Below are positions 48,257-51,080 of a stretch of DNA of 64,000 nucleotides, piece after piece. Below the pieces are notes generated by a model. It saw only the letters and a program-made list of their open reading frames with translations. It did no database searches and was not told where the DNA came from. The stretch is from the NCBI GenBank assembly GCA_944326605.1, contig CALVEM010000004.1, positions 1 through 64,000 of the forward strand, read 5' to 3'. Every line of letters starts with the position of its first letter. The first letter of the stretch is position 1. This DNA comes from Candidatus Gastranaerophilales bacterium (lineage in GTDB: Bacteria; Cyanobacteriota; Vampirovibrionia; Gastranaerophilales; Gastranaerophilaceae). The position numbers and the translations under genes are program-made.

Positions 48257-49519
48257 GTGAAAAAGATTAATTTGCTGTATGATGCTACTACTATTTGTAA
48301 GATTTTGACAAATAATTCATCACGAAGCGGTATATTTTTTGTAGCATATAATGTTCTGTTGGAATTTCTCAAACGTGAAGATTTAAATGTATATTTATAT
48401 TCCTCAAAACCGGTTAAATTACTACAGGTCATTAATCAATATAAAGAGTTTAGCAAATGTAAAATATATAAGCCTATATTATCAACTTACGGGAATTTTT
48501 TAGCCCAAAAACTCGGTGAAAATAAAAATAAACCATTAAGGTTATTTTATAGTCTTCAAGCTTCTATATTAAAAAAATTATATAAATTTTATTTAAATTA
48601 TTTTGTATCTGTTGACGATATTGATGTATATTTTTCGCCAATGTATGCTGTTCCTGACTTTATAAAACGTAAACAAGGTATAATTAAATATACAATTCTG
48701 CATGATGCAATTCCGCTGGTGAATGATTACAGGCAATCTATCATCCATAAATGGTTTTATAAACTTTTGGACTCCCTTAATTCGACTGATAAGTATTTTG
48801 CCAATTCGGAATATACAAAAGAAGACTTTTTGAAATATGTTCCGCAAATCAAGCCCGATAATATAACGGTTATACCGCTTTCTACAGGCAAACCGTATTT
48901 CAAACTTGATGACACTATGTATATAAACCAGATTAAGCGAAAATACGGTATTCCGACAGATAAAAAATATATTTTCAGTCTGTGTAATTTAGATCCCCGC
49001 AAAAATTTGATATTTGCTGTTAAGAATTTTCTGCATTTTGCAGAGAAAAATAATCTGGATGATTTTATTTTTGTACTCGGCGGAAGTCATTTTAAGGATT
49101 TTGAAAGTATATTGAACAAAAATATGGAAAATTTAGGCGAAAATCAAAAAAGGATTTTGCGTATAGGGTATGTAGAAGACGAAGATATGTCGGCATTGTA
49201 CAGCGGAGCGGAGATGTTTGTTTATCCTTCGCTTTATGAAGGTTTCGGTATACCTGTTCTGGAAGCAATGAAGTGCGGATTGCCCGTAATTTGTTCTAAT
49301 TTGACATCTTTGCCAGAGGTTATCGGAAACTGCGGAATACAGATTAATCCTTACTCTGATAATGAACTGGTATGTGCAATGGAAAAGATGTATTATGACC
49401 GTGACTTCAGGGAAGAATGTGTAAGGAAAGGTCTTGAGCGGGCAAAATTGTTCACATGGAAAAAGTGTGTTGATGTTATTGAAAGTCAGATAAAGAAAGA
49501 TTTGGGATATGAAAAATAA
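48257..49519 (+). CDS. GT4-type glycosyltransferase
   Basis: 420 residues from GTG 48257, with GGAG eight bases upstream. The C-terminal Rossmann fold is clear: YIFSLCNLDPRKNLIFAVKNF, RIGYVEDEDMSALYSGAEMF, then PSLYEGFGIPVLEAMKCG with the E-x7-E motif for the donor. Related to mannosyl- and glucosyltransferases of surface polysaccharides. Its last 11 bases overlap the GT8-methyltransferase gene, so both are expressed together. Confidence 0.9.
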   Translation: MKKINLLYDATTICKILTNNSSRSGIFFVAYNVLLEFLKREDLNVYLYSSKPVKLLQVINQYKEFSKCKIYKPILSTYGNFLAQKLGENKNKPLRLFYSLQASILKKLYKFYLNYFVSVDDIDVYFSPMYAVPDFIKRKQGIIKYTILHDAIPLVNDYRQSIIHKWFYKLLDSLNSTDKYFANSEYTKEDFLKYVPQIKPDNITVIPLSTGKPYFKLDDTMYINQIKRKYGIPTDKKYIFSLCNLDPRKNLIFAVKNFLHFAEKNNLDDFIFVLGGSHFKDFESILNKNMENLGENQKRILRIGYVEDEDMSALYSGAEMFVYPSLYEGFGIPVLEAMKCGLPVICSNLTSLPEVIGNCGIQINPYSDNELVCAMEKMYYDRDFREECVRKGLERAKLFTWKKCVDVIESQIKKDLGYEK

Positions 49520-51080
49520 TATTTCGATAGTTTATATATGCGATGAAAAATATGTAATGCCAACCTGTGTTTCGATACAATCAATTTATGAGAATAGAAA
49601 AGTTTCGGTTTATGACATTTATATAATCGGTGTTGATTTATCTCAAAAAAGTAAAAACAGGATAAAAAGCATTAAACTTTCAGGCATAAATATTCATCTT
49701 CTGGAATTTGAAAATAAATATAAAGATTTAAACACAAATCATGTTTATGTATCAAAGGCTGCATTATTCAAATTTGATATTCCAAATATTTTGCCTGATT
49801 TAGATAAGGTTTTATATCTTGACGGGGACACAATAGTGCTGGATGACCTGTCAGAACTTTTTAATACTGATATCACAGAATACTACGCAGGAGTAATAAA
49901 TGATCCATCTGCCTGTTATGTACAAAAAGACAATATAAGATTAGGAATTAAAAAATATTTTAATTCCGGTGTAATGCTTTTAAATATAAATAAACTAAGA
50001 TTAGAAGGTATTCCTTCCAGATTACTGGATTGTAAATTGCATTCTCATTCTATGAAGTATATGGATAATGATTGCTTTAATATAGTTTTTAATGACAGTG
50101 TTTGCTATTTAGAGCCAAAATTCAATTACTTTATAGTAAATGAATACTTATATAAAAAGTTTACTGAAAAAGAAATTACTCCTGTTATAGTGCATTTTAC
50201 TTCTTCAAAACCATGGGAAAAATATGGACTTAATTATGGATGTTTGTGGGACAGATTTTACTTAAATTCTAATTTCGGGGGGGGGGCATTTTTGGTTCGG
50301 AAATATATATATAAAGAAAAACAGGGCAATAAAAGAATATTGCATATTGGTTGTTTTAAATTTTCTTATAAAAAATTAAGTATAAAGTCATTATTCAAGT
50401 TTAAACCTTTTGTAAAAGAAAAAGAGGTAAAAGAAATTTTACCTTTAGCAATTAAACGTTCGGAAATAAGTGAAAAAGAATTTAAAAACTATCCGCGAAA
50501 AGATTTATACTATTATCTGTTTGAGAATGTTTTTTATGATAAAGATGTAATAACTAAAATCCAGCGTAATTATCTTAAATATGTTCCTGTTTCTTCTGTA
50601 AATAACTTTTTGGATATTGGCTGCGGGAGAGGTGAGTTTTTAAACCTTTTACAATCACAGAATATTAAAGCAGAGGGTATTGAAATTAATAAGTTGGAAT
50701 GTGAACTTTTAATAAAGAAAGGTTTTAATGTTAAAAATATTGATGCTTTAGAGTATTTAAAAACTACAGACAAAAGTTTTAGCGGTATCTCTATGATTGA
50801 AGTTGTTGAACATTTAAGTTTTGATTATCTTTTTGAACTTTTGGCTGTAGCATATAAAAAAATAGAATTAGGCGGAGTAATAATTATTGAAACTTTAAAT
50901 CCGATGAATATACAAAATTTAAAATATTTTTATACTGATTTAACACATTTAAGACCTGTACCATTGCAATCAATACAATTTTTGTGCGAGTTTGCAGGTT
51001 TTAAAATAAGTAAAATAATATATTCTGCTCCTAATAAAAAAGGTTATGTAAATTATGCAATAATTGCGGAAAAATATTAA
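49509..51080 (+). CDS. GT8 glycosyltransferase fused to a SAM-dependent methyltransferase, with an in-frame G10 tract
   Basis: 523 residues. Residues 1-250 form a GT8 domain: NISIVYICDEKYVMPTCVSIQS and VLYLDGDTIVLDDL with the metal-binding D105-x-D107, as in LgtC. Residues about 360-520 form a class I methyltransferase: FLDIGCGRGEF (Asp369) and MIEVVEHLSFD, with IIETLNP. Codons 257-260 lie in ten consecutive G (50277-50286), encoding Gly-Gly-Gly-Ala. Nine or eleven G would truncate the protein soon after the GT8 domain, so the length of the tract decides whether the methyltransferase is made. The gene probably decorates and methylates a surface glycan. Confidence 0.88.
   Translation: MKNNISIVYICDEKYVMPTCVSIQSIYENRKVSVYDIYIIGVDLSQKSKNRIKSIKLSGINIHLLEFENKYKDLNTNHVYVSKAALFKFDIPNILPDLDKVLYLDGDTIVLDDLSELFNTDITEYYAGVINDPSACYVQKDNIRLGIKKYFNSGVMLLNINKLRLEGIPSRLLDCKLHSHSMKYMDNDCFNIVFNDSVCYLEPKFNYFIVNEYLYKKFTEKEITPVIVHFTSSKPWEKYGLNYGCLWDRFYLNSNFGGGAFLVRKYIYKEKQGNKRILHIGCFKFSYKKLSIKSLFKFKPFVKEKEVKEILPLAIKRSEISEKEFKNYPRKDLYYYLFENVFYDKDVITKIQRNYLKYVPVSSVNNFLDIGCGRGEFLNLLQSQNIKAEGIEINKLECELLIKKGFNVKNIDALEYLKTTDKSFSGISMIEVVEHLSFDYLFELLAVAYKKIELGGVIIIETLNPMNIQNLKYFYTDLTHLRPVPLQSIQFLCEFAGFKISKIIYSAPNKKGYVNYAIIAEKY
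50277..50286 (+). repeat. Poly-G tract (G10), candidate phase-variation switch
   Basis: Ten consecutive G in an AT-rich gene, exactly at the linker between the two enzymatic domains. With 9 G the frame ends after about 35 more residues; with 11 G it ends within about 12. Confidence 0.8.

Follow-up and report, generated by a model that had tools for sequence, protein, structure and literature searches.

Ten consecutive G lie within a gene that fuses a GT8 glycosyltransferase to a methyltransferase, and the question is whether this run is a switch and, if so, whether it concerns this gene alone. An earlier note had proposed a slipped-strand switch of the single gene. Slipped-strand variation is indeed the best-supported mechanism, mainly through the other tracts of the genome; looking at a single gene had been too restricted a view, as pilins are the main targets.

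The tract in the GT8-methyltransferase gene

The window, i.e., the whole stretch of 64 kb that was analyzed, is the start of contig C4. The following features of the locus are needed here:

48257..49519, + strand: upstream group-1 glycosyltransferase gene (PF00534), which adjoins the GT8 gene also in genomes G035, G041, and G016
49509..51080, + strand: GT8-methyltransferase fusion gene, 523 aa, open at 10 G
49527..50222, + strand: GT8 domain (Pfam PF01501), residues 7-238, with DGD motif, intact at any tract length
50277..50286, + strand: G10 homopolymer, codons 257-260 (TTC GGG GGG GGG GCA), on the G-rich (leading) strand
50312..50314, + strand: stop TAA ending the product at 268 aa with 11 G (in silico)
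50377..50379, + strand: stop TAA ending the product at 289 aa with 9 G (in silico)
50535..51008, + strand: methyltransferase domain (Pfam PF13489), residues 343-500, with LDIGCGRGEF, absent at 9 or 11 G

Position and length of the run were confirmed, and the reading frame is open through the tract, so that both enzymes are fused in frame at 10 G as the earlier note had stated. The ATG of the fusion gene overlaps the end of the upstream glycosyltransferase gene. PF01501 was matched with E 1e-43 and 150 bits (cut-off 24), the DGD motif corresponding to the expected DxD, and PF13489 with E 9e-14 and 52 bits (cut-off 27), where LDIGCGRGEF forms the glycine-rich motif I. The tract does lie between the two domains, as had been claimed, but its description as a junction is loose, since it sits 19 residues past the GT8 match and about 83 ahead of the methyltransferase match.

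In silico, a change of one base in the tract (9 vs. 10 vs. 11 G) toggles the reading frame of the fusion. The frame closes within roughly 35 residues at 9 G and 12 residues at 11 G, and both shortened products keep the GT8 only, in agreement with the stand-alone GT8 that had been predicted. The tract is the sole G run longer than five in the 64 kb, where the same strand holds 47 runs of G4, 8 of G5, and none of G6 to G9. The earlier note knew of no report of phase variation of this kind in Melainabacteria, and a search of PMC full text (open-licence papers only) for phase variation in Melainabacteria or Vampirovibrionia found none.

The locus in related genomes

A full-length relative of the fusion protein is present in one of the 33 genomes of the genus, G035, with 72% amino acid identity. 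Its tract is G11, reading TTC CGG GGG GGG GGG CTT versus TTC GGG GGG GGG GCA TTT in the window gene. The number of codons is equal, and changes in the flanks offset the G11, leaving the fusion in frame. According to the earlier note, a G10 fixed everywhere or a fusion with non-G linker codons would have argued against a switch; neither is seen in G035, which keeps the tract at a different length. On the two sequences, the comparison shows an altered tract with a conserved fusion and not switching as such, and a fusion that stays in frame across the length change fits both a switch and selection for the ON form. A contig search of the genomes for a second strain of the same species, by way of relatives of the GT8-methyltransferase, found none.

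In G041 and G016 the same upstream glycosyltransferase is followed by the same GT8, without tract and with a different second domain, namely a group-1 glycosyltransferase in G041 (L011:1492-3642) and an FkbM methyltransferase in G016 (L012:1495-3102). The second domain is therefore an exchangeable module, and the tract lies immediately ahead of the module region. This layout agrees with a putative switch that would add or remove a second activity, as originally proposed. GT8-like genes on contig C13 of G002 (L013, L026) carry longer C tracts of 12, 13, and 14 in their N-terminal part, where only C14 is apparently in frame (starts judged by eye).

A genome-wide set of runs with a preferred length of ten

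In the whole genome (2.05 Mb, 26 contigs) a pattern search for exactly ten G with non-G on both sides returned 74 runs, and the window tract is one among about 80 near-identical runs. Run lengths were counted in 1.61 Mb read in tiles (79% of the genome), where G/C runs of 4, 5, 6, 7, 8, 9, 10, 12, and 16 occur 2334, 302, 13, 3, 1, 8, 60, 1, and 1 times, respectively. The distribution is sharply bimodal and almost empty at 6-8, and these homopolymers exceed chance expectation by far, in number as well as in uniformity of length. A second length peak was not found for A/T runs in the same 1.61 Mb. The idea that the tract never exceeds ten in its own genome was rejected, as runs of 12 and 16 exist.

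A length as uniform as this could also arise if true lengths of at least 11 were called as ten in sequencing or assembly, and the related assemblies are for the most part metagenome bins, with contig names (NODE, k127, k141) that point to short-read assemblers. However, runs of 9, 11, 12, 13, 14, and 16 appear in the same kind of data, and in several species a tract of exactly ten keeps the GT2, radical SAM, and GT8-methyltransferase genes in frame. Because these genes must be in frame, we consider such an artefact highly improbable. Several contigs start within about 60 bases of a tract (G000:C7:5-14, G042:C4:14-23, C80, C91, and C119 of G014, C3 and C5 of G061); these starts resemble assembly breaks, for which length mixtures or repeated leaders could each be the cause.

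The wider distribution was followed in an even draw across the order, with one genome per species and mostly metagenome assemblies. Exact G10 runs number 8 to about 170 in all sampled genomes of the genus but one. Tens of them occur in some further genera of the family, few or none in most, and in the other families of the order they are almost absent. A restriction of the tracts to the genus was rejected, as many are found also in the family genera g20, g21, g17, g18, and g33. In g33 the genomes G138 and G124 have many G10 runs, but these are followed by A or T and lie on both strands of one contig, which sets them apart from the strand-uniform C-G10-C kind.

Most tracts lie in the leaders of prepilin-like genes

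About 80% of the tracts of the own genome lie 3-40 codons past the start of type IV prepilin-like genes, and pilin leaders hold 55 of the 70 tracts sampled there. Across eight genomes, 197 tracts were assigned to the N-terminal leader of genes with a prepilin motif (FTLAEVLITLGIIG and variants), which takes the form FTLAEVLITLG in tract genes. PF07963 was matched by one tract-bearing member, and all 197 genes have the prepilin motif; by this cleavage/N-methylation motif they are predicted to be type IV prepilin-like. The layout comprises a ribosome-binding site, ATG, 3-40 codons, the G run, 6 to 225 codons, the prepilin motif, and the pilin body (start codons being assigned by ribosome-binding site and distance), and a C run replaces the G run where the pilin gene points in the opposite direction. 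In 1.25 Mb of the own genome we counted 69 prepilin ORFs, 40 with a tract in the open leader and the remainder without one, including three in the window (13377, 56456, and 59973, all +).

The pilin reading frame is open at 11 (or 8) G, and the tracts are mostly one base short of it. Among the 170 pilin tracts of length ten in the eight genomes, 159 need one more base, 7 are in frame and 4 need one base less; these rates are per tract and not per pilin, as the relatives were sampled around tracts only, and independent leader families are fewer than the genes counted. Tracts of length 11 are in frame in 8 of 13 cases, those of length 9 need the loss of one base in 8 of 11, and over all lengths 16 of the 197 are in frame. 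The 55 pilin tracts of the own genome comprise 46 tens needing +1, six nines needing -1, and three in frame, which include both runs longer than ten (12 and 16). In the frame set by ten G a stop follows at a median of 2 codons past the tract (9 in the third frame), and hence the ten-G product would be cut short at once. Internal starts, which would make the tract irrelevant, were ruled out for about 48 pilins with short leaders by the lack of any Met between tract and prepilin motif; the exclusion covers these short leaders and not the longer ones.

The path from tract to prepilin motif is free of stops in the pilin frame for 199 of 206 tracts with a motif within 1 kb, a set taken without prior demand for openness. 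Base shuffling of leaders of at least 25 codons gave about 7 of 142 expected open, where the 142 leaders had been pre-chosen as open and serve as expectation only. Mismatches between paralogs are spread over the three codon positions of the leader (169/194/203) but not over those of the first 30 pilin codons (452/144/1171), i.e., a constraint on the amino acids of the leader was not found by paralog mismatch per codon position. Since leaders without codon-position bias drift and yet stay open, openness itself appears to be selected.

Two further features of the leaders were seen. Many long leaders of own-genome pilins (e.g., L041:8730, L046:8486) resemble translated dispersed repeats (HPELVSGS, VILNLFQDLLTGSKDAKRHRCKA) and are kept free of stops in the pilin frame. 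In some leaders (L117, L113, L195:3143, and others; 18 strict matches, e.g., L088:8142) the part that joins tract and prepilin motif holds a promoter-like element with an inverted repeat, consisting of TTGTAA, about 16 nt, TGTTATAAT, and then GTGAT-N7-ATCAC. Its phase is constant relative to the pilin frame, and in the sequence scanned it is confined to tract-bearing pilin genes.

Tract lengths differ between close copies

In the own genome, near-identical paralogs with 98% identity over 138 nt carry G10 and G9 (overlapping same-locus pairs at the head of the paralog table were excluded as self-matches). Paralogs of G042 with 92% identity have G11, in frame, and G10, out of frame, and orthologous pilin tracts are G10 in G035 and G9 in G033. 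Loss of mismatch repair was rejected as a cause: MutS and MutL are present, in the genus and outside, and slippage is therefore not boosted by such a loss, a point that weighs against phase variation.

The frames would also be read differently if the DNA were fixed at G10 and slippage were programmed, either at the ribosome (-1 on G GGG GGG or C CCC CCC) or at the RNA polymerase (one extra base). All pilins would then be made at a low level from a fixed sequence, and the window gene would yield some GT8-only product. The required shift is nearly constant, +1 nt at ten in the 159 cases, the zero-frame stop comes directly past the site, and tract length is very uniform over many unrelated leaders and both tract senses. 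The one-sided offset (159 vs. 4) counts against phase variation, as selection for default OFF alone would allow both directions, and it is expected from programmed slippage as well, for which reason we retain this alternative. However, lengths vary: 9-tracts needing -1 and in-frame tracts of 11, 12, and 16 exist with intact pilin genes, most of them at places where the length shifted with no compensating change; in-frame genes would forfeit product for nothing, and slippage of a G10 in DNA is unavoidable in any case. For transcription, slippage is known mainly at A/T runs, which speaks against the polymerase version. Taken together, we regard programmed slippage as unlikely.

Some genes are in frame at ten

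For a minority of genes, a run of ten is the in-frame length. In the own genome these include the GT8-methyltransferase gene, two genes for GT2 glycosyltransferases, one for a radical SAM protein, and one for an FtsH-like AAA/M41 protein. Five species have the GT2 tract, which encodes Ala-Pro-Pro-Pro, at exactly C10 and in frame, and in two others it is interrupted. The radical SAM peptide RHLGGGALEC is well conserved, and most relatives write it in mixed codons (e.g., TTA GGC GGC GGA GCT), whereas it is CTC GGG GGG GGG GC in the own genome, G035, L222, and L289, and G8 in L214. The G10 of this gene occurs in lineages that look independent. In several relatives, the FtsH-like gene would need one or two synonymous changes to reach G10. 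In the part of the own genome that was scanned, G10 is found at 3 of 53 GGG[ADEGV] sites vs. 0.08 predicted from codon usage, and none of the 53 has a run of six to nine G. The radical SAM and FtsH-like tracts were built by synonymous substitution and not by slippage, which counts against phase variation.

The tracts follow the replication strand

All 70 sampled tracts of the own genome have their G on the G-richer, leading strand. Tract strand is uniform per contig except for C3 and C9, each of which has one switch, at the reversal of GC skew; exactly two switches are what two replication arms give. Pilin genes of both directions obey this polarity, with 33 G-tract pilins on the leading and 14 C-tract pilins on the lagging strand and no exceptions (Fisher 3e-12). 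Local skew, which is noisier than contig skew, agrees at 86 of 96 loci in four other genomes and at 134 of 153 with the own genome included. A dnaA-like gene lies at L044:11350 (C1, near 231 kb), not on the strand-switch contigs.

Perfect polarity is not a known requirement of phase variation and in this respect counts against it; candidate explanations are orientation-dependent slippage or a selected polar motif. C-G10-C could in the second case be a replication-polar DNA motif (KOPS/Chi-like) or a recombination signal, its effect on reading frames being secondary. Such a motif accounts for the polarity with its two switches and for those tracts that are of synonymous origin, but it leaves the pilin frames unexplained: for a motif there is no reason why the pilin frame should lack one base and meet a stop directly afterwards. 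Moreover, most of the tracts crowd at a single position in a single gene family instead of being spread over the genome, with none on contigs C6 and C10 and only the window tract on C4. We therefore consider a motif with merely secondary frame effects improbable.

A combined form, in which the frames matter as much as the polarity, is less unlikely, but we put it forward as a tentative possibility. Here gut Melainabacteria of one family might use a uniform replication-polar C-G10-C element as a genome-wide switch code, in which dozens of pilin genes sit exactly one base out of frame at the set-point length and are OFF by default, whereas the glycan genes sit in frame and are ON. The element would also be made synonymously in core genes, and its selected role would be tied to replication direction, beyond slippage.

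A proposed phase-variation set with a set point near ten

We propose that the tracts probably form a genome-wide slipped-strand phase-variation set with a set point near ten G, of which the window tract is one member, with pilins OFF and glycan genes ON by default. Replication slippage at the G run, which is to be expected on physical grounds, would add or remove one base. With a set point near ten, a frame that needs eleven is OFF by default and a frame that needs ten is ON. In the majority of cells most pilins would consequently be OFF, G11 variants that are ON being rare, and glycan genes would be ON with rare OFF variants. In the window gene a slip of one base would remove the linker and methyltransferase and leave the GT8, such that the surface glycan would lose one methylation and not the sugar.

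If this holds, the poly-G contingency system of an uncultured, non-photosynthetic gut sister group of the cyanobacteria would rank among the larger ones seen, and its targets would be pili rather than mainly the capsule. A cell would then display a small, randomly chosen subset of its dozens of pilins together with a partly methylated glycan, which would matter for escape from phages, immunity of the host, and the choice of niche. With its strict polarity and ten-base set point, the system is also a clean natural test case for the influence of replication direction on homopolymer slippage. For annotation, caution is advised: pilin genes that seem frameshifted are numerous in these genomes and could be called broken, although they are probably switched off.

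Comparison with known systems

Campylobacter jejuni NCTC11168 has 29 poly-G/poly-C loci of 7 or more (PMC4965091), and poly-G/poly-C phase variation of C. jejuni affects capsule and lipooligosaccharide enzymes (PMC8437040). Both systems have G/C homopolymers in the coding sequence of surface-glycan genes, with lengths near 9-10, where a change of one base decides between full and truncated product. In C. jejuni, according to work cited in PMC4085013, insertions dominate at G8-G9 and deletions at G10-G11, with a set point near 9-10; a balance as described in that citation would place the set point near ten, in line with the lengths observed here. In contrast to C. jejuni, most tracts here are in prepilin leaders, with about 80 per genome and lengths tightly at ten, in the presence of MutS and MutL; the pilin frame lacks one base in nearly every case, and the leading strand always carries the G.

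Strict leading-strand polarity with switches at two points is shared with KOPS, Chi, and SRS motifs, from which the tracts differ by their concentration in pilin leaders. Programmed -1 frameshifting of the dnaX type likewise has a slippery homopolymer, an early stop in the zero frame, and a long product in the shifted frame; unlike there, tract length varies here, in-frame (ON) alleles exist, and G and C runs are both used. The genus Neisseria shows phase variation of pilus and glycosylation genes, i.e., pilC and the pgl genes. Poly-G tracts in genes for pili and pilin glycans are common to Neisseria, for which a phasome survey is available (PMC5953494), and the present genomes. However, the pilin gene of Neisseria varies by gene conversion, whereas here dozens of pilin genes each have their own leader tract.
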